Virus record (IMG/VR): IMGVR_UViG_3300029448_000144
Span: 1 to 23,383 of that record
Direction: 5' to 3' (one strand)
Origin: a virus
DNA: 23,383 nt
Part shown: positions 5,101 to 20,333 of the stretch, in pieces
Position numbering within the stretch: the first letter of the stretch is position 1
How the letters are laid out: each line of letters begins with the position of its first letter
The notes under the pieces: generated by a model
What the model saw: the letters and a program-made list of their open reading frames with translations, nothing else
Told to the model about the DNA's origin: nothing
Database searches by the model: none
Program-made: the position numbers and the translations under genes

Positions 5101-5581
5101 GGGCTGTGTTGTCAGACATCTGCTGTTCAAAGCTCTCGCCCCATGCAGCGTTACCAAAGATAGTTGTCTGCGCTAGGTCTGATGCAAATTGAGCTTCCTC
5201 TTCGTTTAATCCGTTTTGTGCAGCAAACTGTCGTGCTATCTCGGAATCAAAAGTTTCTTTTAGCTGTGGGAATGCGTTGTAATCTAAATGCTCTTCTTCT
5301 TCTTCTAGCTCTGATAAATCTATAAGAGGCTCATTATCTTCTTCATCTAAAAACGCAAGCTCATCTACTGGATCGGAATCCTCTTCTTTATCTAAGAATG
5401 ATAGTTCATCAACTTCTGGCTTTTGATCTAAAAAGGATAGCTCATCTTCTTGTGTTATATTCTTATTGTTATCCTTCTTATAGTTAGGGTGCATTTCCTG
5501 CACTACCCCTAGTGCATCTCCTGCACCACCCTTGTGCATTTCCTGCACTACCCCCTCGTCCTTCTTCTCGCTTATTTCCAT
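2165..5581 (-). CDS. Large internal virion (ejection) protein, T7 gp16-like
   Basis: 1138 aa. The ATG at 5581 overlaps the stop of the previous gene by 10 bp. Size class, order (last of three internal proteins) and mixed helical/hydrophobic make-up match the large podovirus ejection protein that lines the DNA channel through the envelope. The N-terminal about 100 residues are very acidic and hold three DELSFLD-type motifs at 46-52, 58-64 and 73-79. Hydrophobic stretches occur near 290-325 and near 1005-1022, candidates for membrane insertion. I see no clear lytic transglycosylase (SLT) domain such as T7 gp16 carries at its N-terminus. Residues 10-31 encode VVQEMH twice, over a repeat that appears to be conserved as nucleic acid (see 5489-5548). 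The assignment is by position and style, not by a signature motif. Confidence 0.72.
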   Translation of the reverse strand: MEISEKKDEGVVQEMHKGGAGDALGVVQEMHPNYKKDNNKNITQEDELSFLDQKPEVDELSFLDKEEDSDPVDELAFLDEEDNEPLIDLSELEEEEEHLDYNAFPQLKETFDSEIARQFAAQNGLNEEEAQFASDLAQTTIFGNAAWGESFEQQMSDNTALSLGMGTVKAFTSGVGGIIDIFGDEDNVMNKKYDQLDSIQMKGLTEAIENGDQSQFLLRSVNKTVSDVGGTLFLMGKMMKGANALLKGKNLSLIAKGKTYKELFKVTSLRSAFMGAYAMATTTGSLEERTKAAGLMAGMSMTPVITGLARTNLGAIVADIGANVAITQNFRMEDALARARSMAERVAGEGATEEEIYEIEKQFVMSEMIQNFGPDVAFGAMTRSVRATQEQAARTGTAPTRKEIRQEVKKGETNPYMDLTGRPITDADMAPTKAAETVFTPEGAQTAGQRLKQDKRVVKQKLVKNQKEGKARRRQIYTTIGESLKVNKKPSKKTEAVTRDSRGFKGLVEGATALKRQFSTMDELADTLDGGKAKYDGAAHRALVDNRRVGDAAATKMTRFRKQAFDKVMKDAKMSTRKLGQKISFHPGYGKLSRSELMGIYAKSKQTGGMRAVLAGNFKGDKAAMRSAIKYVESNPALKQMSDYIIADYARTRGRIAETYEKVEGKALADIDYYTPLNRKGVEFNKGIDDIKNMMEGSGNFSTAQLSKAQMKQRVGSNAEVRLDLVGEWLGMTSKMEHYIHQADNVKTIDGIIKNLGSDIEKAHGKSMVDELKNYQERVANPDVLYKADNQVDKVFKTIRKNLSVGYLAYNVKTITKQIPSYFFYMQDLGSTPEGLARLGRSMVDTASNWTTVKENGKTRLVNAQVKFAEKMDENIRSTTVDSVINEFRTNHRNVYDKLVGKIGEDGLRGIVATDKVVRASGWNAVYKKALQENKTQAEAVRLARNTTARTQPTNVAADLASIYQKGEGYRTALMFSNQLLKIYNGIYNRAPKLAKNLQDQQSRDQLTGLIMSTVLAGTGIWASDNGKLPENEEELVDMMTSIFLNGSGPVGGAVAQTMSGFDYELPIIGAGKDAIELGKKIADPDQDVEFRDYQGVLAAAGVPVTGAKRAYKAVEEGSVLPLFMPTKKEEPKKFNID
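5489..5548 (-). repeat. Three tandem 15-nt hairpins with GGA loops
   Basis: Three copies of the inverted repeat GTGCA-N5-TGCAC start at 5489, 5512 and 5534 (steps of 23 and 22). In the mRNA each is GUGCA, loop GGAAA or GGAGA, then UGCAC. They lie in codons about 12-31 of the gp16-like gene. The outer two are read as QEMH, while the middle one is read in another frame as GAGDAL, so the conserved unit is nucleic acid rather than protein. Confidence 0.75.
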
Positions 5582-7262: not shown

Positions 7263-7769
7263 TTATGTCGGGTCTTTCATCATGTCTTTACCTGCATACC
7301 AGCCCGTAAGACCGCCAGTAACCGCGCTAACATAGCCGGCTCGCTCTGTCCACTTAGCTTTTGTTTCTTCCATGTCGCCTTGGAACTTAGCTGATCTAGC
7401 TGTGTTAATACCACTTGTCCTTGCAAGGTCGCCTATATACATTTGATTTAAAGCATTTTCAGCCATTTTGCTGGATTCTGTTTGAACCTGCATGATGTCC
7501 CCACCAGCCTCCAATCCGCCACGTGAACCAATGGAGGCAATCTGCTGACCGGTAATCTGACGAGCTTGGCGGGTAGCCTGTTTAGCTTTAGTTGTTGCTT
7601 GATCAGCCTCTGACTCTGCACGCTTCATTGCTAAATCTGCGTTATAATTAGCCGCGTCCTGTGCTGCCTTTCCAGACGCCTTGGCTGCTTGTGCCTGTGA
7701 TACACCACTATAAATAGCAGATGCTGCTAATAAAAAAGGTATCCAAAATCCTGCTTCGACTATTTCCAT
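7263..7769 (-). CDS. Internal virion protein, T7 gp14-like
   Basis: 168 aa, ATG at 7769 behind GGAGG and one base after the tube B stop. The N-terminus has one hydrophobic segment (residues about 7-24, AGFWIPFLLAASAIYSGVSQ), followed by an alanine-rich helix (QAQAAKASGKAAQDAANYN), a central long helix rich in K, R, Q and A, and a glycine-rich C-terminal hydrophobic patch (VTGGLTGWYAG). This plan is typical of the small podovirus internal protein that in T7 enters the outer membrane during ejection. Position directly after the nozzle gene and before the gp15-like gene supports this. The ATG fits the Shine-Dalgarno well. The exact biochemical role is inferred. Confidence 0.75.
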   Translation of the reverse strand: MEIVEAGFWIPFLLAASAIYSGVSQAQAAKASGKAAQDAANYNADLAMKRAESEADQATTKAKQATRQARQITGQQIASIGSRGGLEAGGDIMQVQTESSKMAENALNQMYIGDLARTSGINTARSAKFQGDMEETKAKWTERAGYVSAVTGGLTGWYAGKDMMKDPT

Positions 7770-7770
7770 T

Positions 7771-10700
7771 TTATCCTCCGTAAACTTCTACCCATGCAGA
7801 CAGGGAAAGAACTGTCATAGGGTAGGGTAAAGTTTGTTTTATTTCAAGTAATTTTTGATTATTAAAGTCTTGAGCCATGTAGAATCTCTTTTCCTCTATC
7901 TCCATTTCGGCAATATTGTTAGCTACCGATGTGGTATCGAGGTCTTCATCTAGCGTGGCTGTCTTATCCTTTTCACCAACAGATGCCTGTTTAGTGTTAT
8001 AGAACTTAACATACATTTTAGACACACCCTTAACTCTTGAGTTAGGTAGTTTGCCTTGTATTACAGGCTCTACGGGTAACGGGCGAGCCATTGATTCGTA
8101 GTTTAATCCAAGGGTATGTACGCCAGCCAGAAAACTTTCTCCATCTGCGTAGGTTATTCCGGGGATAATAATTGTTGCTCCTGCGCTTGCTTGATAACCA
8201 ACGTATTTTCCCTCGCGCAATACATACACATCTTTTCCAACAAAACGTGCGGGAGTCGTGGTAACTGCTATTCCCGAAGCAAGCTCAAGACCTGAGTCTA
8301 CAAACGTGTCGCTTGATTCTTTTTCTAACAAATAGCTTCCGTTGCGCTCTACTACCCACCACACCTGCTCTTCACCATTAATAGTTAAGCTGGTGCCTGA
8401 CTTGTAATTGCCATCAGTTGTTAATCGTGACCACGCTACAACCTGCTGTCCTCGCTCGTATGTTAATGCTGCCACGTTGCCGTTTTCTTGTACGCAGTAT
8501 ACTACTGTATCTGGCTTGTTCTTGGCGAATATCTGTTTAATTGGTGATTCGCGAAGAATGTCGTCGCAGATTACGTTGAGGTTGTTTGCCACATATCCGG
8601 CTTCATTGCTGTTGTAAATAAGTTCGCGTAGCTTTTCACCTGACTTCTCAGCGTATAGCACAGCCCCGTTAACGAATAATGGTTGTGTTAGCTTTGAAGG
8701 GAATGAAGATTCCTTAATGGTTTCTACGTTAGCCTGTGTGGTTAATGCCTCGTCAGATGCGGCACCTACAGATACGAAGCCACCCTCTGTACCTAAGAAT
8801 AGACGCTTCTTGCCTTCTAAGAATACACCCTTTTCTGGGTTGTCAATGATACGCTTAATAGCTAAATCGTCCTCAGAACCGCCTAGGAAGTTGTAGTAGT
8901 CTCCAGTAACCGATGCATATAAAGCTGATGGCTCTGAATTGGAACCACTAAACCATAGTCTGTTTTGGAAGAACTTAGCAGCAGCGGGGTATCCGTTACG
9001 CTCTGAGAATGACTCTAGTGCGAAGTATGGTGTGGAGTATGCACCGACCAGTGGCGACTTAACCTCAACCCATGCAGTAGTAGAATCAACTACATCTAAA
9101 ATCTTTACAACACTTGTTAAGTCTGATTCAACAACTTCGAGTGATATAGCAGGGTATCCACCAGTATTTGATGCATCACGCATATATCGCACACGAATGA
9201 ATGTATTAGCACTTTCTCGTGTTGGACTAGCAACGATCTTGTTTGTTCCTTCCATGCCCGAGGTGTTATATACTATGTAAGAGTTCCATGTCTTACCGCC
9301 ATCAGTTGATCGTTCGACATCCACCAGTCCAGTCCAGTTGTCAGCGTCGACGGCATTGGTTGGTGATTGTGCTGTAGTAACTTCCCAGTTGTTGTATGAC
9401 ACGTTTAGTACACCTGTAAAGCCTACTCGACCGCCTGATAATGCTGCCGCTGAAAACTGACGCTGAACGCGCGTTCTTGTAGATACGTCTGTTGCATCTG
9501 AGTTACCCTGTCTTGTATAAGTTTTAATAGCGTAGTGCAACCCTTCATCAGATGTGTCTGTTATCTTAAGCCAGTCACCATTGTTGGTTGTGCCTAAGTA
9601 GAATCTGTTTGCCGGAGTTAAGCCAACCACGCTGTTCTCATATGTAGAGTCTGTTGTAACGCCACCAAAATCTGATGTTGGTTCATATATTCCATCACTT
9701 CGGTCAGCCCAGTTATCTCCGTAAGATATGACTGCAGTCGAGTTGCCCCATATTTCCACGAGCCTATCTTCTCCATTAGTGCAAACAAAGGTTTCTTCAC
9801 CAGCATCTAGAAACCCTCGCTCAACCAGAGAGGCTCCTCCTGTAGGCTCCTGCGTTAACAGATGGCTACCTACCATGTTGCTTTCAAAAAAGTCGTGGTT
9901 TGCCTTCAGTTGCAGTTTAAAGCCCTTCCTGATGATTGCGTCGGCAGATGTTCCTTCTAGGTCGTATGCGCTAGTGGCGTTGTCTGTGTAAGCGTATAGC
10001 GAGCCCACTCCGTCTGCAACACCATTAGTATAAACATATCCGTCCTCTTGCGGCGTGTTTCCGTTTTTAGGAACAAAAAATCTTAGCGTGTTGTCGCTGT
10101 TATCGTTTAAATCCTCAAATGGCTCGTAGTCGTATGTTACATCTTTGTATTCAAATACAAGAGGTGACAGATTGATACGGTTAAAAAACTTAGGCGGGTG
10201 ATTTGGATGTGTAAGAATCATTGTATCAAAAGACTGAGTGAACTGAACCTCATGCTTCTCATCGCCTGTGTATGATGGGTTAGCTTCTTGGTACACGTCC
10301 AATTCAACTATGTCGTGTATCCTTGCACTTGCACCAGCAGGGGCGTGTGCTATAACCAAGTCTGTAGAACTTGATGTAAAGTAATGAGTGTAGTCCTCTT
10401 TACCTGAAATGAAAACCTCAGAAACGTCTACGTCTACCCCGTTAATTGAAATGTAGGCATCTGATCCCCCTTGAAGGTGGAGTTTTAAATCTATTCTGTA
10501 AAAGCCACCAACTGTAAGTATTCCGGAAAATGTAGCACTAGAGCTTTGCGTAATTTCAAGATGACCAGAGGCGTCTATCCGTGCATCTGTTGCATCACTA
10601 AATGTAACTCCACCAAACTGCGACTGTAAAGGCGTCTGCATATCCAGCACCTTACCAGAGCTTCCATCATTAGCTGTGACTGATACGGATGCGTCGGATA

Positions 10701-10932
10701 ACTCTACTACGTATGATTCATCGGCATCAAACTGAAAGGGTATAATGCGTGTGTCAGCATTAAGCTCCTTGACCACATCAGTTCCATTACGACGTCCTAC
10801 TCCGCCTTGGGGTAGCACTTCAAAGTTCTCCAATCGATCACAGCCGTTCCGGTATAGGTCTAGGTCTGTGCGTCCTTGAGCCTTAGACCCAATCTCTCCG
10901 CTGTTAAATGCAGCCTGATGGTGTATAGACAT
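7771..10932 (-). CDS. Tail tubular protein B (nozzle), T7 gp12-like
   Basis: 1053 aa, ATG at 10932 behind AAGGAG. The N-terminus (FNSGEIGSKAQGRTDLDLY, then NFEVLPQGGVGRRNGT) is the usual opening of podovirus tail tube B/nozzle proteins. The conserved core near residues 645-685 (YPAAAKFFQNRLWFSG followed by ALYASVTGDYYNF) is also characteristic. In T7 the equivalent forms the hexameric tail nozzle under the gatekeeper ring. It is longer than T7 gp12 (about 794 aa). The extra length appears to be beta-domain insertions, one at about residues 95-215 and one at about 540-620 (DGGKTWNSYIVY), which may be receptor- or fibre-contacting. It follows the tube A gene by 13 bp, consistent with co-assembly of the two rings. 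Confidence 0.88.
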   Translation of the reverse strand: MSIHHQAAFNSGEIGSKAQGRTDLDLYRNGCDRLENFEVLPQGGVGRRNGTDVVKELNADTRIIPFQFDADESYVVELSDASVSVTANDGSSGKVLDMQTPLQSQFGGVTFSDATDARIDASGHLEITQSSSATFSGILTVGGFYRIDLKLHLQGGSDAYISINGVDVDVSEVFISGKEDYTHYFTSSSTDLVIAHAPAGASARIHDIVELDVYQEANPSYTGDEKHEVQFTQSFDTMILTHPNHPPKFFNRINLSPLVFEYKDVTYDYEPFEDLNDNSDNTLRFFVPKNGNTPQEDGYVYTNGVADGVGSLYAYTDNATSAYDLEGTSADAIIRKGFKLQLKANHDFFESNMVGSHLLTQEPTGGASLVERGFLDAGEETFVCTNGEDRLVEIWGNSTAVISYGDNWADRSDGIYEPTSDFGGVTTDSTYENSVVGLTPANRFYLGTTNNGDWLKITDTSDEGLHYAIKTYTRQGNSDATDVSTRTRVQRQFSAAALSGGRVGFTGVLNVSYNNWEVTTAQSPTNAVDADNWTGLVDVERSTDGGKTWNSYIVYNTSGMEGTNKIVASPTRESANTFIRVRYMRDASNTGGYPAISLEVVESDLTSVVKILDVVDSTTAWVEVKSPLVGAYSTPYFALESFSERNGYPAAAKFFQNRLWFSGSNSEPSALYASVTGDYYNFLGGSEDDLAIKRIIDNPEKGVFLEGKKRLFLGTEGGFVSVGAASDEALTTQANVETIKESSFPSKLTQPLFVNGAVLYAEKSGEKLRELIYNSNEAGYVANNLNVICDDILRESPIKQIFAKNKPDTVVYCVQENGNVAALTYERGQQVVAWSRLTTDGNYKSGTSLTINGEEQVWWVVERNGSYLLEKESSDTFVDSGLELASGIAVTTTPARFVGKDVYVLREGKYVGYQASAGATIIIPGITYADGESFLAGVHTLGLNYESMARPLPVEPVIQGKLPNSRVKGVSKMYVKFYNTKQASVGEKDKTATLDEDLDTTSVANNIAEMEIEEKRFYMAQDFNNQKLLEIKQTLPYPMTVLSLSAWVEVYGG

Positions 10933-10945
10933 TAAGTTCTCCTTC

Positions 10946-13900
10946 TTAGAATCTTGGTGTTTCGTAATTGCGAGAAGCTATCCAGTTGGCTTCTGAGTAT
11001 GGTATAAACCCTGTGTTGTTGAAGTAATCGTACGTTACATAGCTAGATTTAAACGCCTCTCCATCGCTAGCAACAGATGTCGTTTCATCGTAAACTAAGG
11101 AGCCTACAGTCCAGCCGGTGGTTGGCGGGTACTCTGTGTCTGCTGAGTTTGTTGAGACAGTAAATGTGTCCTCGCCAAAGTCGTCTAACATCGTCCACTG
11201 AGAGCCATCCCATTGTATTCTGTAAGACGCGCCGAGAGTATCGTCGTAATATCTAACCTTGCCATTTCTAGTTCCGTTGACAGTCATCCCTCCGTTTATG
11301 TTGGGCGCGGAAGTAATACCGCTAATAACGATTGAGTCGTAGCTCTCTACTGCTGTTGTTACTTGGTTGTACCACTGCTCCAGCTTTGGAAAGTCGTCGT
11401 TACTTGGTGTTTGATAGAACAAAACATCACTGTCAGTAGATATGCTAAAGCCATAAGAAATAACCCAAGCAAGTCCGCGAGTGTCAAAATCATACTTCTG
11501 GATAAAGTAACCATTGTCGTTTTTATAGTAGTAGTGTCCATTCGTGTCCTTTGATTGCAGGTTGTAGTCACCTGCGATTCGCTCGTCCGTTTCGTAGACA
11601 ACCTCAATGCACTTAGGATGCTCTGAGAACATCTCTGTGTAGTAGTCGTTCCACTCACGCTGAGTCTTGAGTTGCTCACCCATGCTAGCACGTTGTACTT
11701 GTCCGCCTGATGCAACCTTGTCTAAATCGGTAAGCAGATCCTCGGCTACTTGAGCGCGTTCTACATCACCAGATGCATCTACTTTGTCTAAATCTGTTAG
11801 CTTATCTTCCGCTACCTTGCTTCGCTCAACATCACCAGAGGCATCTACCTTAAGTAAGTCGATAGCTTTGTCTTTAGATACTGACGCTGTTTCAACAATC
11901 TGACTTGACGCAACCTTAAGCAAATCAATCGCTTCATTTACGGCAACCGTGTCCGCCTGAACGTCTTGGCTGGCGGCAACCTTAAGAAGGTCAATAGCTT
12001 TGTCAGCGGCAACTTTAAGGGTTTCCGTAGCTTGACCAGATGAAATTTTTACAGCGTCTGTTAGCTCTTCCTCAAGAACGTCAGCACGGGATACGTCGCC
12101 CTTAGCATCAATTTTCAGTAGGTCAACAGCCTTGTCCGCAGCAACCTTTAGGGTTTCGATTGCTTGGCTTGATGCTACCTTAAGTGTGTCTGTAGCTTCG
12201 TCCTCTGCAACAGCAGCTTGTTCAACGTCTCCACCTGCGGCTACTTTTAACAGATCAATAGCCTTGTCGGCTGTTACCGCTGCTGTTCTTACTGTCTGGC
12301 TTGATGCAACCTTAAGCAAGTCGATAGCCTCGTCAACTGCTACTATATCTTCCTGTACGCCCTGACTGGCATCAACCTTCAATAAGTCTGTAAGTTTATC
12401 TTCCGCCACCTTGCTTCGCTCAACGTCGCCAGAGGCATCAACCTTAAGCAGGTCAATAGCTTTGTCCTTGGCTACTGATGATGTTTCAACAGTTTGACTT
12501 GAAGCAACCTTGAGCAAATCAATTGTTTCATCTGCAGAAACAGCTTGAGTCTGAACGTCTTGGCTGGCGAAAACCTTTTGGATGTCAACAGCTTTATCGG
12601 CAGTAACTTTAAGAGTCTCAACCGCCTGAGAGGCTGCTACCTTATCGGTGTCTGTTAAAATATCTTCTGCAACCTTAAGGCGTTCTGTGTCCCCTGCTGC
12701 GTCAACCTTTAATGCGTCAATCACTTTGTCAGCAGCAACCTTTAATGTTTCTGTTGCTTGTGATGCGGCTACCTTGTCAGCGTCTACTAACTCATCAGCA
12801 GCAACCTTGGCTTGTTCTACAGCTTGGCTGGATGCAACCTTTAACAAATCAATAGCTTCGTCCTTAGAAACTCCAGCAGTAGCAACTACTTGTTCAGCAG
12901 CTACCTTTAGCAAGTCTGTAGCTTGATCTTCTGCTACTGCTGCCTGCTCAACGTCCCCGCCTGCGGCTACCTTTAACAAGTCATTCGCTTTGTCAGCTGA
13001 AACCTTGAAACCTTCTATCACTTGGCTGGCAGCAACCTTGTCCATATCTGTAAGCTTGTCCTCAGCAACCTTAGCGCGTTCAATATCACCAGCAGCGTCT
13101 ACTAGTAGTAAATCAATTGCCTTGTCAGAAGCCACCTGTAGTGTTCTTACAGCTTGTGATGCCGCTACCAAATCCTCGTCAACAGCTTGGTCAGCCGTAA
13201 CCATTGCTTCTCTAACGGCTTGGCTGGAGGCAACTTTCAGCAAATCAATAACTTCATCTTTAGCTACACCAGCAGTCGCAACAACCTGTTCCGCAGCTAC
13301 CTTCAATAAATCTGTAGCCTGATCCTCGGCAACAGCTGCCTGCTCCACATCGCCACCAGCGGCAACCTTCAGCAAATCAATAGCTTTGTCAGCTGCTACC
13401 TTAAGGGTTTCGATAACCTGAGAGCCAGCAACCTTATCAGTGTCTGTTAAAATATCTTCTGAAACCGCAGCTCGTTCGACATCACCAGCAGCATCTACTA
13501 GTAACAAGTCGATAGCTTTGTCGGAGGCAACCTGTAGCGTTCTTACGGCTTGCGATGCTGCAACTAAATCTTCGTCAACCGCTTGATCAGCTGTAACCAT
13601 TGCCTCTCTTACAGCTTGCGATGATGCAACTTTTAACAGGTCTACAACCTCATCCTTGGCTACACCTGCTGTAGCAACAACCTGCTCTGCAGCCACCTTA
13701 AGTAGGTCTGTGGCTTGATCTTCCGCTACGGCAGCCTGTTCTACGTCTCCACCAGCAGCAACCTTAAGTAAGTCGATTGCCTTATCGGCTGCAACTTTAA
13801 GAGTTTCAATTGTCTGAGAGCCAGCTACTTTATCAGTGTCTGTAAGTATATCCTCGGCAACCTCAGCTCGCTCGACGTCACCTGAAGCATCAACCTTCAA

Positions 13901-15298
13901 TAAGTCTGTAAGCTTGTCCTCGGCAACCGCAGCGCGTTCAACGTCACCTGAAGCGTCAACCTTTAACAAGTCAGTCCCTTTGTCAGCTGCAAGCTTGAAG
14001 CCTTCTACCAATTGGCTAGCAGCAATTTTGTCTAAGTCTGTAAGTTTGTCCTCTTCAAGCTTGGCACGTTCAACATCACCTGAAGCATCAACCTTCAACA
14101 AGTCAACGGCTTTATCGGAGGCAACCTTTAAGGTTTCAATAATCTGAGAGGCACCTACTAAATCTTCGTCAACAGCTTGGTCAGCCGCAACCATTGCTTC
14201 TCTGACCGCCTGACTTGATGCCACTTTTAACAGGTCAATAACTTCATCCTTAGCTACGCCAGCAGTAGCAATAACTTGCTCGGCAGCTACTTTTAACAAG
14301 TCCGTCGCCTGATCCTCAGCAACAGCCGCTTGTTCTACGTCTCCACCTGCTGCAACTTTTAGCAGGTCAATAGCCTTGTCTGCAGCTACCTTAAGAGTCT
14401 CGATGGTCTGAGATCCAGCAATCTTATCAGTGTCTGTTAAAATGTCTTCTGCAACCGCAGCTCGCTCAACGTCACCACCAGCGTCTACTTGTAATAAGTC
14501 TGTAATCTTGTCTTCTACAACCGCGGCTCGCTCAACGTCGCCAGAAGCATCCACCTTAAGTAAGTCGATAGCCTTATCGGCTGCAACTTTAAGGGTTTCA
14601 ACTGTCTGAGATGCTCCTACCTTGGAGGTATCAACCTCTGTATCGGCTGTAACCTTAAGCAACTCAGCTTGACGCGTATAGTCGATTTCCTGTTTAGCCA
14701 TGTGGAACTTAAGGAATGCTTCGTCTGTTAGGTCATGCTGCTTGTCGCCTGCTCCGTATAGTTCTTCTTCAGTCTTAACGGCTAGCTGTAAAGCTTCAGC
14801 GTATTCCTTTCCTAGCACAACACCAGACTCTTGGTCTAATGTTAACGCTGGTGCAATCTTGGAGGCTAGTTTTAGAACTATAAGCTGGTTAAGATGCTCA
14901 TCAAATGCTAAGGTTGAGGTGATGGATGTGTCAACAATAGACACTTCAAGTAAAAGGTTAGTGCTATTAACGTCAAATGTTTCCAACAGAAAGCCGTTAA
15001 CATTGTATTGGTGGGGTTGGAGGTATTCTCGTGTTACTGTGTTTGGTGTAAATACGCGGTGCAGTTTAACCACATTGTTGGGCATGGCATATAAAGCTCC
15101 ATCGCCAGCTGTTGATGATTTTGTTATAGATTGTATAGATGCTACACTTGAAAACTTGTGTGCTAAAATAACTTCTTTAATTGCTGAGTCGATATATGTG
15201 TTGGCTACTACCGATGGTCGGTCTGTGCCAGAAAGGTCGGTGGTGATGTCAGCTCCTACTCGGAGGAGTGCTTGGTTTGCAAGTTCTAGCTTAGTCAT
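10946..15298 (-). CDS. Tail tubular protein A (gp11-like gatekeeper) fused to a 90-repeat hendecad fibre
   Basis: 1450 aa, ATG at 15298 with TGGAG upstream. Residues 1 to about 190 match the podovirus gatekeeper/tail tube A pattern (MTKLELANQALLRVGADI, then RPSVVANTYIDSAIKEVIL). T7 gp11 is only about 196 aa and ends there. Here residues 222-1211 are exactly 90 uninterrupted 11-residue repeats of the type IDLLKVAADKA, a coiled-coil (hendecad) periodicity without a single insertion or deletion. Residues 1212-1450 hold two small aromatic/glycine-rich beta modules (RIAGDYNLQSKD near 1240 and SGITSAPNINGGM near 1326), each with NG and W landmarks. I infer a ring protein carrying its own long fibre tipped by ligand-binding modules. 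An alternative is a tape-like internal part. The N-terminal call is firm; the fibre role is inference. Confidence 0.85.
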   Translation of the reverse strand: MTKLELANQALLRVGADITTDLSGTDRPSVVANTYIDSAIKEVILAHKFSSVASIQSITKSSTAGDGALYAMPNNVVKLHRVFTPNTVTREYLQPHQYNVNGFLLETFDVNSTNLLLEVSIVDTSITSTLAFDEHLNQLIVLKLASKIAPALTLDQESGVVLGKEYAEALQLAVKTEEELYGAGDKQHDLTDEAFLKFHMAKQEIDYTRQAELLKVTADTEVDTSKVGASQTVETLKVAADKAIDLLKVDASGDVERAAVVEDKITDLLQVDAGGDVERAAVAEDILTDTDKIAGSQTIETLKVAADKAIDLLKVAAGGDVEQAAVAEDQATDLLKVAAEQVIATAGVAKDEVIDLLKVASSQAVREAMVAADQAVDEDLVGASQIIETLKVASDKAVDLLKVDASGDVERAKLEEDKLTDLDKIAASQLVEGFKLAADKGTDLLKVDASGDVERAAVAEDKLTDLLKVDASGDVERAEVAEDILTDTDKVAGSQTIETLKVAADKAIDLLKVAAGGDVEQAAVAEDQATDLLKVAAEQVVATAGVAKDEVVDLLKVASSQAVREAMVTADQAVDEDLVAASQAVRTLQVASDKAIDLLLVDAAGDVERAAVSEDILTDTDKVAGSQVIETLKVAADKAIDLLKVAAGGDVEQAAVAEDQATDLLKVAAEQVVATAGVAKDEVIDLLKVASSQAVREAMVTADQAVDEDLVAASQAVRTLQVASDKAIDLLLVDAAGDIERAKVAEDKLTDMDKVAASQVIEGFKVSADKANDLLKVAAGGDVEQAAVAEDQATDLLKVAAEQVVATAGVSKDEAIDLLKVASSQAVEQAKVAADELVDADKVAASQATETLKVAADKVIDALKVDAAGDTERLKVAEDILTDTDKVAASQAVETLKVTADKAVDIQKVFASQDVQTQAVSADETIDLLKVASSQTVETSSVAKDKAIDLLKVDASGDVERSKVAEDKLTDLLKVDASQGVQEDIVAVDEAIDLLKVASSQTVRTAAVTADKAIDLLKVAAGGDVEQAAVAEDEATDTLKVASSQAIETLKVAADKAVDLLKIDAKGDVSRADVLEEELTDAVKISSGQATETLKVAADKAIDLLKVAASQDVQADTVAVNEAIDLLKVASSQIVETASVSKDKAIDLLKVDASGDVERSKVAEDKLTDLDKVDASGDVERAQVAEDLLTDLDKVASGGQVQRASMGEQLKTQREWNDYYTEMFSEHPKCIEVVYETDERIAGDYNLQSKDTNGHYYYKNDNGYFIQKYDFDTRGLAWVISYGFSISTDSDVLFYQTPSNDDFPKLEQWYNQVTTAVESYDSIVISGITSAPNINGGMTVNGTRNGKVRYYDDTLGASYRIQWDGSQWTMLDDFGEDTFTVSTNSADTEYPPTTGWTVGSLVYDETTSVASDGEAFKSSYVTYDYFNNTGFIPYSEANWIASRNYETPRF
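11666..14635 (-). repeat. 90 in-frame 33-bp (11-aa) repeats
   Basis: Codons 222-1211 of the tube A fusion. Each unit follows the pattern V/I/T-D/E-x-x-x-V-A/D-x-x-x-x, alternating types such as IDLLKVAAGGD and VEQAAVAEDQA. Higher-order blocks of 12 units (units 25-36 and 37-48, 396 bp apart) are almost identical as protein but very different in synonymous codons. The + strand of this stretch also stays open for long runs, an artefact of the repeat. Confidence 0.95.
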
Positions 15299-15375
15299 GA
15301 TAGCTCCAGTTTATTAAAAGGGTAAAAAAGTAGCTGGACTTACGGGGCGAGAAGGAAAACCTCTGCCAGCCGGGT

Positions 15376-15407: not shown

Positions 15408-16388
15408 TTACGCGTCTACTGTTTCGTCACAGTCAACACGAACAACTTTAGCTTCTTCCATACGAACAGCACCGAAGCGAGCTGAAGCGTATGCATACCA
15501 GTTGAACCGCATATCTGCACGTTTTTCGACTTCAGTCTTGATGTCAGAACCAGTTACAGTACGGATACCAGACTTACACCATACGATGTTAGAACGGATG
15601 TCTCCATTAGTAGTAGGAGAAGCAACAGTTCCAGCGTCAGGAGCGTCGTTAGTCCAAGAAAGAACAACACCGCTGTCGTCAACTTTAGGCAGCAAGTTGC
15701 TGATGCAGAAGTTGAAGCCGAGGAAGTTGTTAACTTTACCAGAAACCAACGCTTGGATGTTGTTGTAGTCGCTAGAGATAACGTTCTCTTCAGCCAACAA
15801 GTCAGCGATCTGCTTAGGTGTAACAGCAATGTAAAGCGCGTTCATTGGGTCGTCGAGGTCGATACCAGCGATTTCCAACTTAGCACGTGCTTCACGCAAC
15901 TTAGCAACAGTTAAGCCTTCGTTGTTGTTAGCGATAACTTGATCAGAGCCTAATGCAACAGGAGTGTCAGTACCAGCTTTACCTACAGAAGCGTTTCCGA
16001 GGATGCCAGAAATGAACTCAATGTCACGCTTCCGGTTCAATGCAGAAACCATACGCTGAACGTATTCAGCAGAAGGATCGATCAAAGAACGAAGCTTGTC
16101 TTGGCTGTCGATCATTAGACCAACATCATATGAGCTAGCAGAAACCCGACGACGATCGTGAGCGATGCTTGCGATTGGGCTAGTGTTAGATGTTCCGCTT
16201 ACAGAAGCAGTAGTTACTTCTGATGCAGTTACAGAAGCCAATGTGTCGTAGAATTTGTATTCTCCGTCGATTGTATCTTCCATTGATTTGCCAGCGAACT
16301 TTCCGCCCTTAGTCTCTGTGAGGAGGTGAAGGGTAGAAGCAAACTGGTTTACGAAGTTAGGATCCAAAGGACCACCTGTATATGCCAT
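15408..16388 (-). CDS. Major capsid protein
   Basis: 326 aa, ATG at 16388 behind GGAG at good spacing. It follows the scaffold gene and precedes the tail tubes, the usual capsid position. The sequence fits a podovirus HK97-fold coat protein: an N-terminal arm with LHLLTETKGGKFAGKSMED, a conserved DRRRVSASSYDVGLMID stretch, the spine-helix region ending in ALNRKRDIEFISGILG, and a C-terminal MRFNWYAYASARFGAVRMEE. It has its own sigma70-type promoter (16552-16579), a leader of about 155 nt and an intrinsic terminator, all suited to very high expression. I saw no slippery site that would suggest a frameshifted long form such as T7 gp10B, although I cannot exclude one. Confidence 0.9.
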   Translation of the reverse strand: MAYTGGPLDPNFVNQFASTLHLLTETKGGKFAGKSMEDTIDGEYKFYDTLASVTASEVTTASVSGTSNTSPIASIAHDRRRVSASSYDVGLMIDSQDKLRSLIDPSAEYVQRMVSALNRKRDIEFISGILGNASVGKAGTDTPVALGSDQVIANNNEGLTVAKLREARAKLEIAGIDLDDPMNALYIAVTPKQIADLLAEENVISSDYNNIQALVSGKVNNFLGFNFCISNLLPKVDDSGVVLSWTNDAPDAGTVASPTTNGDIRSNIVWCKSGIRTVTGSDIKTEVEKRADMRFNWYAYASARFGAVRMEEAKVVRVDCDETVDA

Positions 16389-16585: not shown

Positions 16586-17464
16586 TTATAAATTATCACC
16601 TAGTTTACGCATTAGATCAAGTCGCTTGTCCTGAATGTGCTGTGGAATATTCCCAGTACTACCCAATAGCTCTTTAATCTGCTGGTTAACATCAAACAAC
16701 TGATCTTTCAGTCCAGCCATTGTGTTAGTATGGTGGTGTCCAATCTCTACATCATCAGCAAATGACTTAGAAATGTTACCTAGAGTTTTAGCTAATGCAG
16801 CGTTTCCTGTAATACCAAGAGACTCTATATTTTCTGCACTCATACCATTGTTCATTAACATAGCTTTGATGCCGTCATTCATTCCGTCGTAGGAATCTCC
16901 CCACTCCTTCTTGACTTCAGCTTCCTGTTCTGTGTAATGAGCTTCGTTAACCTTGTTAGTTTCCTGAACGTCTGTAGCAATCTGACCTAAATACCAGTCT
17001 ACTAATTCGTCAGCTTGATCGGTAGAAGCTCCAAGCTTAAATGCTTGCTCCTTAAATCCGTCGATAGCTTGTTCAAAGAAAGGTACAGCTTCTTCGCCTA
17101 CCAACTCCTTGAAATCATCGTTAATGTTAAAGTCATAACCTTCAATAGACTCAGGTCGACCCATCTTAGCGTAGAAATCATTCCACTCTTCTTCACTTGC
17201 GTCCTTAGTAGGGATATCACCCTTCTTGCCAGCAAAGCTCTGAAGCTCCTTGATGTACTTACCAACCTCGTTAGCATCCTTGCCTTCTAGGTTCTTCCAG
17301 AATCCAGCAGATTTAACGTCATCATCATCTATCTGTGACAGCATAGAGTCAACGAACGCTTGCTCAGTTACTTCCTCAGTTGCTTCTGCTGTAGGTTGCT
17401 CAGTCGTTTCCTCTACAACCTCTTGTGTTTCTACTACTTCTTCTTGTACTTGTTCTTCAGCCAT
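16586..17464 (-). CDS. Capsid assembly scaffold protein
   Basis: 292 aa, very acidic, ATG at 17464 inside a TAATG junction with the preceding 34-aa ORF and with its own GGGAGAAGGA ribosome-binding site. The N-terminal 45 residues are mostly E, V, T and Q (low complexity). The middle carries the pattern common to podovirus scaffolds (EEWNDFYAKMGRPESIEGYDF, then a helical region with QADELVDWYLGQ), and the C-terminus is helical and ends in basic KRLDLMRKLGD, a likely coat-binding tail. Length and place directly before the capsid gene agree with T7 gp9. It is expected to act inside the procapsid and leave before or during packaging. Confidence 0.88.
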   Translation of the reverse strand: MAEEQVQEEVVETQEVVEETTEQPTAEATEEVTEQAFVDSMLSQIDDDDVKSAGFWKNLEGKDANEVGKYIKELQSFAGKKGDIPTKDASEEEWNDFYAKMGRPESIEGYDFNINDDFKELVGEEAVPFFEQAIDGFKEQAFKLGASTDQADELVDWYLGQIATDVQETNKVNEAHYTEQEAEVKKEWGDSYDGMNDGIKAMLMNNGMSAENIESLGITGNAALAKTLGNISKSFADDVEIGHHHTNTMAGLKDQLFDVNQQIKELLGSTGNIPQHIQDKRLDLMRKLGDNL

Positions 17465-17568
17465 TATCCTTCTCCCTTTGACTTTTTAGTTGTGTACTTT
17501 TTCTTACTTGCTGGATATGTCTTACCAGATACTTTTGCGTTTGTGTATTTCTTTTTAGTACTTCTCAT
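17464..17568 (-). CDS. 34-aa lysine-rich ORF with hairpin-bridged start
   Basis: Short ORF with 34 codons from ATG 17568 to TAA 17466-17464. The protein is strongly basic with an internal repeat: KKKYTNAK near the start and KKKYTTKK near the end. No family is recognised. The stop overlaps the scaffold ATG (TAATG), so it may be a translation-coupling leader as much as a functional peptide. The nearest good Shine-Dalgarno, GGAGG at 17609-17605, is 36 nt away, but the intervening RNA can fold (see 17569-17609) and reduce the effective spacing to 5 nt. That design, plus tight coupling and resemblance to the C-terminus of the 55-aa ORF at 18347, favours a real gene. Confidence 0.55.
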   Translation of the reverse strand: MRSTKKKYTNAKVSGKTYPASKKKYTTKKSKGEG

Positions 17569-17609
17569 AATAATAGCGAAGTTATCCCTATTGGGGTGTC
17601 GCTACCTCC
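17569..17609 (-). promoter_or_regulatory. Split Shine-Dalgarno joined by an RNA hairpin
   Basis: GGAGG (17609-17605) abuts a perfect 6-bp stem UAGCGA (17604-17599) with UCGCUA (17579-17574), inside which a CCC/GGG mini-stem can also form. After the stem come UUAUU and the AUG at 17568. Folding turns a 36-nt gap into 5 nt, the optimal spacing. A comparable device is known for T4 gene 38. Confidence 0.6.
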
Positions 17610-17621
17610 TTTATGTAATGA

Positions 17622-17903
17622 CTACCACTTAACTTTGTTCGCCCAGTATGCGGCAGATAATACACCCTTGCGGATGTTCTTGCCGTGCCGAGCTTTGAAA
17701 GATTTGCGTCTAGCCTTTTGTTTTTTAGTTGTAGGATTCTTGCCAGCACCAGAAACTCCTTGCTGTCCGAACCTTATTGTTTTAACCGTAGAGCCTGACT
17801 TGGCTACTACTACATGAGATTTCTTCGCATGACCCGAAGTGCGCTTGGGCTTATTGTACCCTGACACCCCTATGCGTTTTAAAATTGACGCTTTCTTAGT
17901 CAT
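17622..17903 (-). CDS. Small basic phage protein, unknown function
   Basis: 93 aa, highly basic (many K and R, very few acidic residues), ATG at 17903. N-terminus MTKKASILKRIGVSGYNKPK; the C-terminus carries RRKSFKARHGKNIRKG followed by SAAYWANKVKW. I recall closely similar RHxKNI...SAAYWA endings in small proteins of marine podoviruses and cyanophages, generally unannotated and found in the structural region. That is recollection, not a search. The charge suggests DNA or capsid-interior binding. It lies between portal and scaffold, a common spot for head-associated minor proteins. Confidence 0.7.
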   Translation of the reverse strand: MTKKASILKRIGVSGYNKPKRTSGHAKKSHVVVAKSGSTVKTIRFGQQGVSGAGKNPTTKKQKARRKSFKARHGKNIRKGVLSAAYWANKVKW

Positions 17904-17911
17904 ATTAAATA

Positions 17912-18079
17912 CTACTGCATACCTAACATACGTAGCAAGTTGTTGTTCTGTTGCTTTTCGTCGCCTTCAACTGTAGCTAAATCAGGGTCGATTAACTTTT
18001 CAGCATCAACAGTAGCTGGCTTGTACTTAGCTAGAACGTCTTGTGTTGTAACGGTTTTATATTTATCCATCATTCCCAT
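17912..18079 (-). CDS. 55-aa hypothetical protein
   Basis: 55 codons from ATG 18079 (AGGAG six bases upstream) to TAG 17914-17912. It begins MGMMDKYKTVTTQDVLAKYK and ends with NNNLLRMLGMQ; charged and probably partly helical. The start overlaps the end of the preceding 93-aa gene by 17 bp. No family is recognised. The good ribosome-binding site and tight packing between two other genes support coding. Internal ATGs at codons 3 and 4 are alternative starts but have worse spacing. Confidence 0.65.
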   Translation of the reverse strand: MGMMDKYKTVTTQDVLAKYKPATVDAEKLIDPDLATVEGDEKQQNNNLLRMLGMQ

Positions 18080-18344
18080 CGTATTCTCCTATTTCTTTCA
18101 TGTTTAATTGTTGTTTAATTGCTAGCATTACATTTCTCAAAGAGTTTATCTTAGCTTCAATTACTGGGTCATTATACTCAGTAATATCCTGCCACTTACA
18201 AACCCCTACTAAAAACCTCATAACTAGTTGGGCATCCATATCATCCTCATTGAAGATTTTAACAAATGCCTGTCTAGTTTGTTCAGCCAAGTCCCTCTCG
18301 TCATCCCACTTAAAATCGTAGGTGACCTTGTCTACTATATCCAT
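18063..18344 (-). CDS. 93-aa hypothetical acidic protein
   Basis: 93 aa, ATG at 18344 two bases after the stop of the 55-aa ORF upstream. Acidic and helical, with MDIVDKVTYDFKWDDERDLA at the N-terminus and NSLRNVMLAIKQQLNM near the C-terminus. No cysteine cluster, no membrane segment and no motif I recognise. Its position between portal and scaffold suggests a head-assembly or head-completion helper. That rests on location alone. Confidence 0.65.
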   Translation of the reverse strand: MDIVDKVTYDFKWDDERDLAEQTRQAFVKIFNEDDMDAQLVMRFLVGVCKWQDITEYNDPVIEAKINSLRNVMLAIKQQLNMKEIGEYDGNDG

Positions 18345-18346
18345 AA

Positions 18347-18514
18347 CTACTTCCCTTTTGTTGTGTACTTACGCTTTGCTGTTCTGCCGACTTCCATCTG
18401 AGCATCTGCTTCAGGTGCAAGTTCTAATTTGCCACCAACGTTCTTTAAACGCTTCAGCTTACTTGGATCAGCATACTTAAGAAATCTTCCCATATTACTG
18501 CCGCCACCCATCAT
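18347..18514 (-). CDS. 55-aa small basic protein
   Basis: 55 codons, ATG 18514 to TAG 18349-18347. The portal stop is two bases upstream, and a strong ribosome-binding site (GGAGGTGA) lies within the portal's last codons. Sequence features: glycine-rich MMGGGSNMGRFLKYADPSK at the start and RTAKRKYTTKGK at the end. The C-terminus resembles KKKYTTKK in the 34-aa ORF at 17464. A second ATG at codon 8 (MGRFLKY) is possible. No family is recognised. It is probably a minor head protein. Confidence 0.65.
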   Translation of the reverse strand: MMGGGSNMGRFLKYADPSKLKRLKNVGGKLELAPEADAQMEVGRTAKRKYTTKGK

Positions 18515-18516
18515 TA

Positions 18517-20157
18517 TTATTCACCTCCAAACATCTTCATTAAGTCCTCAGCTCCAGAGCCAGCCTCCGGTGCTTTCTGTGTTTTAACATAGGCATCTGC
18601 TGCTGCTGTAGATTGTTGTATCTGAGCTTGCTGTGCAGCCTGTTGAGCTTGCTGTTGACGTTTTCCATCACGCTGTTCGACAGTAGTTTGAACATTGTTG
18701 GGAACCATGTTAACATCCTGAATGAATCTAGCCATAGCGTCTGCATCAATGTTGTCCCATATCTCAGGTTTGACCTGACCGATAAGACCCATCTGCTCCA
18801 TTGCTGTCATAGTGCCAAACAATTCGATCTGACGAGATGCTAATGCTGCTTTACCTACTAGCTCGAACTCGATCTCAGCTCCACTAAGCTCCTGAATCTG
18901 AAGCTCCGGGAACTTACGCGCCCGATACATGATGCCAAATGCGCGCTCTAAGATAGGACGTACGAAGTATTTGTTAAGTCGGTTTACGGCTGGTGTAAGG
19001 AACTGAAGTGACAAGTTCAAACGCTCGGATGATTCAAACGCAGTCATGTTCTTCTTGTTCATTAACGGATTGAATAATGGTACATAGAACGCATCGAGAA
19101 TCTCTTCCTCTTTCTTGCGAATCATGTCATCATTAATCATTACATTGTCAGCTGGGCGTAACTGCTCCGGCTTAGACATTGGATTACCAGCGTTCCAGTA
19201 AATGATAGAGCCTTGATCGTTGCTAATACGACGAACACTGCCATCGTTAGGTGCCAACCATGGTGGGTTAGATACACGTTCGGCTCCACGAATGCGAGTA
19301 ACTTCCATGCGGTTAAGCATAGGTAGCGTAGAGAACACCTCTGTAGCAGGGGAGCGTCCGTACTTCTCGTAGTTAGTCTTATAGAATCGACCAACACTGT
19401 AGGGCATTTCATCAAAGCCAGACTCACGTACAATCTCTTGAGCATCTAAGCTAACGTAGTATGACGCGATTGGCTTCTCATTCTTCTTCTGAGTACCAGC
19501 CATGCCACCTTTGCGAGGTGTAACAATGTGAATAAACTTAAACTCCTTGTTGTTTGTGCCTACATCATTAGCGTGATCCCTGATCATTACGGGTAATTCA
19601 TCACCGAACTGCTGATACGCCTGACGCGCTGTAAGTGTGAACTCACGGATAACTGTATCTACCTCGCCTAAGTAGTTTTCACAAAAGGCAAACTGGTTGA
19701 TGTAGTGGCTACGGAAGTTAAGCATACGCTTGTCAGTTCCTTCGCAGTACAAAGCTGTAGTACCAATGTATCCACAAGCGTCAACGCACTGTCCCATCTC
19801 TTCATAGAAGTTAGACTCTTCGATGGCACGATTAAAACGTTTAGTGGCTGCATTTAATGCGCGCTTAACATTATCGTTCTCAGAAAGCTCTTCACTCTTA
19901 ACTGATAACCGAACCCAGTTCTGTCCCTGTGGGAACAGGTGGCTCATCATGCCAGCAGTAAACATACGACGCGCTTTAATACCAATATCGATTACACGCT
20001 TGTTATCCTTGCGCTCACCAGCAGTTTGTAATGCCTCGATGTTGTCAGCCTTCGGGTTGCAGAACTCTGCCGCCGATTGATACAGGCTGTTAAAGTTTGT
20101 ACGCTCGGCAGAACTCATCTCCCGTTTATACATTTTGATCAAGTCAGTTGCGTTCAT
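18517..20157 (-). CDS. Portal protein (head-to-tail connector)
   Basis: 546 aa, ATG at 20157 in an ATGA junction with the preceding 59-aa ORF. The opening (LIKMYKREMSSAERTNFNSL then YQSAAEFCNPKADN), the conserved ARRMFTAGMMSHLFPQGQNW stretch and the later GRSPATEVFSTLPMLNRME match podovirus head-to-tail connector proteins (T7 gp8 family, Pfam Head-tail_con type). It forms the dodecameric DNA gate at one capsid vertex, binds terminase during packaging and the tube A ring afterwards. The C-terminal about 50 residues are rich in glutamine and alanine and probably form the helical barrel end. Length agrees with T7 gp8 (about 536 aa). Confidence 0.93.
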   Translation of the reverse strand: MNATDLIKMYKREMSSAERTNFNSLYQSAAEFCNPKADNIEALQTAGERKDNKRVIDIGIKARRMFTAGMMSHLFPQGQNWVRLSVKSEELSENDNVKRALNAATKRFNRAIEESNFYEEMGQCVDACGYIGTTALYCEGTDKRMLNFRSHYINQFAFCENYLGEVDTVIREFTLTARQAYQQFGDELPVMIRDHANDVGTNNKEFKFIHIVTPRKGGMAGTQKKNEKPIASYYVSLDAQEIVRESGFDEMPYSVGRFYKTNYEKYGRSPATEVFSTLPMLNRMEVTRIRGAERVSNPPWLAPNDGSVRRISNDQGSIIYWNAGNPMSKPEQLRPADNVMINDDMIRKKEEEILDAFYVPLFNPLMNKKNMTAFESSERLNLSLQFLTPAVNRLNKYFVRPILERAFGIMYRARKFPELQIQELSGAEIEFELVGKAALASRQIELFGTMTAMEQMGLIGQVKPEIWDNIDADAMARFIQDVNMVPNNVQTTVEQRDGKRQQQAQQAAQQAQIQQSTAAADAYVKTQKAPEAGSGAEDLMKMFGGE

Positions 20158-20333
20158 TTAAGGTTGAGTCCCCCACCTAATGATTGACCTCTGGTGATCC
20201 ATGAAGCCATAGCTCCCTTGCGCTCTTGTAGCCGCTTCTTGGTTGCTCGACCTGTTTCGGCAGCATCCTGTTTAATCACTGGTGCTGGTGGAGTCTTTAC
20301 TGGTGGTATCTCAGGTGTGTCATACTTACCCAT
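20154..20333 (-). CDS. 59-aa small protein between terminase and portal
   Basis: 59 codons, ATG 20333 to TGA 20156-20154. It overlaps the preceding gene by 8 bp and the portal ATG by three bases (ATGA). The N-terminal half is proline-rich (TPEIPPVKTPPAPVIK), the rest basic (TKKRLQERKGAMASWITRG) with a glycine-rich end. The family is not recognised. The two-sided overlap strongly supports coding and suggests its translation feeds the portal start, which itself lacks a good Shine-Dalgarno. Confidence 0.68.
   Translation of the reverse strand: MGKYDTPEIPPVKTPPAPVIKQDAAETGRATKKRLQERKGAMASWITRGQSLGGGLNLK

Follow-up and report, generated by a model that had tools for sequence, protein, structure and literature searches.

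Saturated silent sites and a nearly fixed protein sequence in the hendecad array of a phage tail-adaptor-like gene

Two adjacent 12-unit blocks of a hendecad array, encoded within a single phage gene, specify nearly the same protein with codons that agree about as often as independent choice predicts. Silent sites between the copies are saturated, without excess divergence, and dN/dS is very low. We consider it likely that the blocks are old duplicates under strict protein selection whose silent sites drifted to saturation, the scrambling of codons being a passive result of age. The first-pass annotation had offered two options for this pattern, an old duplication with strict selection on the protein or DNA selected to diverge. 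The former agrees with the estimates obtained here (dS of at least 2.3, omega about 0.004); the latter does not, as neither identical codons nor long exact matches are in deficit, close copies are no more diverged than distant ones, and codon evenness is ordinary. Scrambled codons between repeats are therefore not by themselves a sign of recoding. The stretch analyzed, referred to as the window (23,383 nucleotides), is part of a 36,920-base virus record (IMG/VR-type virus contig), and all positions are those of the window unless another record is named.

The array gene and its setting

The array lies in a 1450-aa gene flanked by a capsid gene (15408-16388, PF19821) and a TTPB-like gene (7771-10932, phrog_376). 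Its parts are as follows.

10946..15298, minus strand: 1450-aa open reading frame with a tail-adaptor-like N terminus, the hendecad array and a C-terminal domain
14687..15298, minus strand: putative tail tubular protein A (gp11/TTPA-like adaptor) part, 204 aa, from the phrog_394 profile and the alignment with L002
11684..14686, minus strand: array of 91 in-register hendecads, from the unit list
14060..14455, minus strand: block A (units 7-18), a further copy, 90% identical to B
13466..13861, minus strand: 12-unit block B (units 25-36), with 127/132 residues and 56/132 codons the same as in block C
13070..13465, minus strand: 12-unit block C (units 37-48), with the same counts against block B
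12674..13069, minus strand: block D (units 49-60), a further copy, 78% identical to B
13887..13912, minus strand: 26-nt sequence, the longest exact repeat of the array, from an exact-match scan; its second copy is at 12369-12394
10946..11683, minus strand: C-terminal 245-aa domain, with no relative found in the searches given below

The N-terminal 204 aa match the phrog_394 "tail protein" profile over residues 1-177 (E 4.4e-13) and can be aligned with a 204-aa open reading frame (ORF) of the closest relative found, L002, at about 26-31% identity. The best named-phage matches of the capsid are Pelagibacter phages of the HTVC010P kind (~37% identity), and the gene order resembles that of the same phages. 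Judged by sequence, the phage is a podovirus related to HTVC010P, and the array gene is of the tail-adaptor-like (gp11/TTPA) kind; its product, at 1450 aa, departs from the size of the TTPA/gp11 family (~200 aa). For the C-terminal 245-aa domain, we obtained no tblastn match in the phages set (E 0.01), no Pfam match to E 1, and no PHROG match to E 0.1.

The array spans codons 204-1204 of the gene (0-based). We counted 91 in-register 11-residue units, one more than the 90 first reported, with valine at the first position in 84 of them; the unit count and position profile both display the 11-residue periodicity with hydrophobic positions of hendecad coiled coils. An AF2 model of two blocks, with paralogous blocks supplied as the alignment, was all-helical at low confidence (mean pLDDT 54.1). 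A PDB sequence search with the array returned leucine-rich-repeat chains with 22-residue repeats (E 1.3e-10), matches that we judge to come from the shared 22-residue period. Of the two folds, we take a helical rod to be more likely than a leucine-rich-repeat-like structure. If the rod were one continuous helix, its 1001 residues at 1.5 Å each would span about 150 nm. The AF2 model of the C-terminal 245-aa domain was too poor to use (pLDDT 37.6).

Four antisense ORFs of 92-205 aa lie on the plus strand opposite the array gene (12648-12926, 12990-13322, 13836-14147, and 14700-15317) and are probably a by-product of its composition.

Elsewhere in the window, the start of the gp16-like gene contains three GTGCA-N5-TGCAC palindromes at 22-23 bp spacing (5489-5548, minus strand). 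Two further copies and one variant copy, at 23-24 bp spacing, occur in L088 (6277-6338, plus strand; record 29276-29337), within the gene for a predicted replication initiator (phrog_270; O-like initiators match more weakly). An AT-rich stretch, almost the same in both places, follows each cluster (0.03-0.1 expected by chance). The sequences look as if origin iterons had been copied into a virion gene. A different iteron, GGTTCA-N5-TGAAC, forms two clusters in the closest relative (L002 16660-16735; G001:C1:1418-1481, 18993-19054), one of them at the same place in its gp16-like gene. Within a genome the two clusters agree; between the two phages they differ.

Codon identity between repeat copies

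Over their full length, blocks B and C share 127 of 132 residues at a nucleotide identity of 0.780. Their residue identity of 96% is far above the 52% expected from the hendecad pattern for in-register units of the same parity. The number of identical codons, 56, matches the 54.4±5.2 expected under position-specific codon shuffling. A recount of the 111 codons aligned in the first-pass annotation (13511-13843 against 13115-13447, minus strand) reproduced its figures of 46 identical codons, 63 synonymous differences, and 2 amino acid changes, the identical codons again lying within the expectation from shuffles (41.9-46.9). Its description of the silent sites as near saturated also held: 45 of 108 degenerate sites encoding the same residue are identical, close to the 40.9, 43.6, or 49.2 expected from independent codon choice with genome, array, or position-specific usage, respectively.

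We extended the comparison to homologous block pairs, defined as runs of at least four unit pairs each with at least 8 of 11 residues equal. The nine such pairs overlap one another, and their probabilities are not independent. Summed over these pairs, 327 of 706 degenerate codons are identical, slightly above chance in either array-wide (284±12) or position-specific (300±12) shuffles. Residual silent memory is seen in pair 66/84 (27 identical codons versus 16.9 expected) and in pair 6/36 (x10; blocks A and C; 56 versus 45.3), as expected from decay at different ages. Pairs 9/51 (18 versus 24.2, P 0.07) and 22/86 (12 versus 16.4, P 0.09) are low, and the other five fall between these extremes. 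Block D shares 31, 34, and 42 identical codons with A, B, and C, respectively (37.4, 36.6, and 37.6 expected), all within the shuffle range (lowest P 0.086). A low-side P below 0.05 was found in only 1 of 12 pairs, 73/10 (P 0.037), in which 7 of 33 residues are shared and 0 of the 7 have the same codon; it consists of nonhomologous units used as background. Among single-unit pairs sharing 1 to 11 residues, codon identity stays at 0.41-0.49 throughout.

The second of the two options holds that array copies with long matches were lost by recombination between direct repeats, leaving an array that is naturally recoded. We regard this as unlikely, although several observations lean toward it. Among the predicted products of the phage is an exonuclease (phrog_298, E 7.1e-16), which makes homology-driven deletion plausible; at 96-98% protein identity, the B/C codons (45/108) are more diverged than those of capsid (0.76), terminase (0.53), and portal (0.57) orthologues, whose protein identity is lower; the longest in-register nucleotide run between B and C is 14 versus 17.2 expected, a difference that is not significant (P 0.36); and pairs 9/51 and 22/86 have few identical codons. 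The exact matches themselves point the other way. In the full set of unit pairs, the longest match measures 26 nt versus 21-24 expected. Matches of at least 17 nt number 19, where three nulls give 6.7±2.6, 10.4±3.5, and 5.4±2.4; of 100 shuffles under each null, 0, 2, and 0, respectively, had as many. Homologous in-register pairs taken alone are at chance rather than below it, with a longest match of 22 nt (20-21 expected) and four matches of at least 17 nt (2.3 and 3.1 expected). The array therefore has neither fewer nor shorter exact matches than codon-shuffled controls. Matches as long as chance codon choice allows were half of what the first-pass annotation had named as counting against selected divergence, and the longest match is indeed not below chance.

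Distance between units likewise has no effect on codon identity (0.434, 0.423, 0.443, 0.422, and 0.426 over five unit-distance bins), and the codon evenness of the array (0.398) lies within the range of ten other genes or gene parts (0.343-0.507). Codon identity also falls fully to the random level, with no stop at the point where long matches would be broken. Selected divergence was tested by five measures and is unsupported, and all tests for an active push on the silent sites of the array were negative.

Once silent sites are saturated, they no longer show how fast they changed. Silent change could have been sped up after each duplication by the deletion of copies with long identity, with selection ceasing once matches fell below the recombination length and drift then carrying codon identity to the random level. 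To this sequence of events we assign a low probability.

Protein constraint, age, and relatives

Codon maximum likelihood for B and C gave a dS of at least 2.3 and an omega of 0.0044 (0.0004-0.0171). Between the window and L002, orthologue omegas are 0.072 for terminase, 0.080 for capsid, 0.034 for the middle part of the gp16-like gene, 0.019 for portal, and 0.004 for scaffold. The B/C value is lower than those of terminase, capsid, and the gp16-like gene (2ΔlnL 14.0, 21.5, and 6.1) and is not distinguishable from those of portal and scaffold (2ΔlnL 2.1 and 0.04), which are loose because their own silent sites are near saturation (the upper dS limit of both is at the grid edge, and the scaffold dS ran to 245). 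For a repeat array, constraint of this strength is unusual; it is read from copies within one gene.

Codon identity is 0.51-0.76 in orthologues at 57-91% residue identity (terminase, portal, scaffold, capsid, and three gp16-like parts) and 0.33-0.48, with 0.36-0.38 expected, in those at 25-44% residue identity (TTPA, TTPB, gp14-like, and gp15-like). What is surprising is that B and C have older silent sites than the conserved genes and, at the same time, fewer residue changes. This mix reflects either protein constraint or the silent rate, which the data alone do not separate. Pair 66/84 has the reverse mix, with younger silent sites than B/C and yet more residue changes, suggesting that constraint may differ along the array. 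Over five units, its omega of 0.13 (0.025-0.37) differs from that of B/C (2ΔlnL 5.0); over four units, the value of 0.043 (0.0070-0.16) overlaps more with that of B/C.

On the reading that we prefer, old duplication under strict protein selection, a long and probably helical rod in the tail-adaptor protein would have grown long ago by duplication of multi-hendecad blocks, and purifying selection would have kept nearly every residue of B and C as their silent sites drifted until saturated. Such a rod may hold the C-terminal domain at a distance from the adaptor ring, and residue-specific packing between chains may be what freezes the array sequence.

We searched for relatives carrying the array by scanning viral_contigs with the whole protein, capsid, TTPB, two degenerate array DNA patterns, and alignments of TTPB, the array, and TTPA; genome_contigs with the array alignment; and phages with the whole protein, both ends, and blocks B and C. 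None was found in the three sets by tblastn with a low-complexity filter, a search whose coverage may lack the records nearest to the window. Stretches that matched the patterns and failed tblastn confirmation numbered 12 for the whole protein, 76 for the array in viral_contigs, and 104 for the array in genome_contigs. L002, with a capsid 91% identical, has a 204-aa adaptor without the array. Of 122 phage records with a capsid match, 3 were inspected. In HTVC010P, a 582-base ORF at 7501-8082 (annotated as hypothetical) was taken as TTPA; in MW202510, the protein annotated as tail tubular protein A has 276 aa (7303-8133). We identified no TTPA in Vibrio phage K300, whose 750-aa "tail tubular protein" was checked for periodicity only. 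Adaptor ORFs of the inspected relatives are ~194-276 aa long, without the array.

The TTPB alignment recovered at least 559 relatives in viral_contigs, of which the best 80 were kept. At the best 14 of these 80 loci, we read the ORF upstream of TTPB and found no array; 13 ORFs are complete (212-228 aa, stop to stop), and that of L011 is cut by the contig end. Loci L017-L021 look near-identical to one another. The array was also absent from the five TTPA loci, four of which stop at 199-214 aa, while that of L097 is still open after 223 aa, where the contig ends and members of the family usually stop. None of the 10 ORFs of 200 aa or more in the degenerate-pattern match L006 is an array gene, and neither L006 nor L007 has a periodic stretch. 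A periodicity scan of L002-L087 (110-residue stretches, identity above 0.30 at periods 7, 11, 14, 15, 18, 22, and 33) returned five rows in L002, L005, and L048, at periods 7, 15, and 18, and no hendecad array. In L002, the gp16-like gene is split into three ORFs (16638-17651, 17632-19323, and 19379-20191), through either frameshifts or assembly errors, where the window has one 1138-aa ORF.

These searches bear on another origin for the blocks, in which B and C are diverged alleles from separate phage lineages, joined by unequal recombination between homeologous arrays. Such a history would yield saturated silent sites without long co-residence, and the flanking tail genes of L002 (TTPA 31%, TTPB 40%, and gp14-like 25% identical, versus 91% for capsid) suggest that the region may have been exchanged between lineages. 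It seems improbable to us, since no donor array was found in viral_contigs, genome_contigs, or phages and strong protein constraint would still be needed.

The choice of arrays available for study may matter as well. Identical recent copies would collapse or break contigs, so that silent-diverged arrays would be the ones seen, and collapsed copies may be hidden. The window comes from an IMG/VR-type contig, and its longest internal exact array repeat, 26 nt, would be resolvable by an assembler; if the contig was assembled from short reads, arrays of recent identical copies may be missing, favoring scrambled ones. As the whole explanation this is very improbable, because it accounts for which arrays are seen and not for the frozen protein; it is a bias on top of old duplication under strict selection rather than a full rival.

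Comparison with known systems

Compared with the T7 gp11-type tail tubular protein A (phrog_394), the array gene is alike in its N-terminal 204 aa and in its position between the capsid and a TTPB-like gene. The inspected relatives end at ~190-280 aa, whereas the array gene adds 91 hendecads and a 245-aa domain, which would make it an unusual tail adaptor extended by a rod. With hendecad coiled coils, the array shares a strict 11-residue register (valine first, then V/I/T and L/A positions); its AF2 model is helical at low confidence. It differs in that its units alternate glycine and serine.

Our literature search on natural repeats recoded against recombination returned none by title or by the start of the abstract. 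Ubiquitin units become monomers and are conserved across eukaryotes; the array repeats, in contrast, seem to remain parts of a single long protein, and the sets searched yielded no relative of the array. Polyubiquitin genes are otherwise similar, with tandem coding repeats, a near-invariant protein, and many silent differences within one gene (PMC10457151), and the array copies likewise combine near-identical protein, diverged silent sites, and a dN/dS far below 1. For polyubiquitin, strong purifying selection and concerted evolution have been debated, as described in PMC10457151, and Nei et al., as cited there, held that strong purifying selection with silent divergence suffices. Against strict selection on old duplicates stands the rule reported by Persi, Wolf and Koonin (2016; PMC5120217), by which the copies of a repeat inside a protein as a rule first diverge, with selection relaxed or positive, and become conserved afterward. 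By analogy, the array is best read as the logic of polyubiquitin at work in a phage, a counterpart in which saturated silent sites accompany nearly fixed residues, contrasting with the relaxed selection usually reported.
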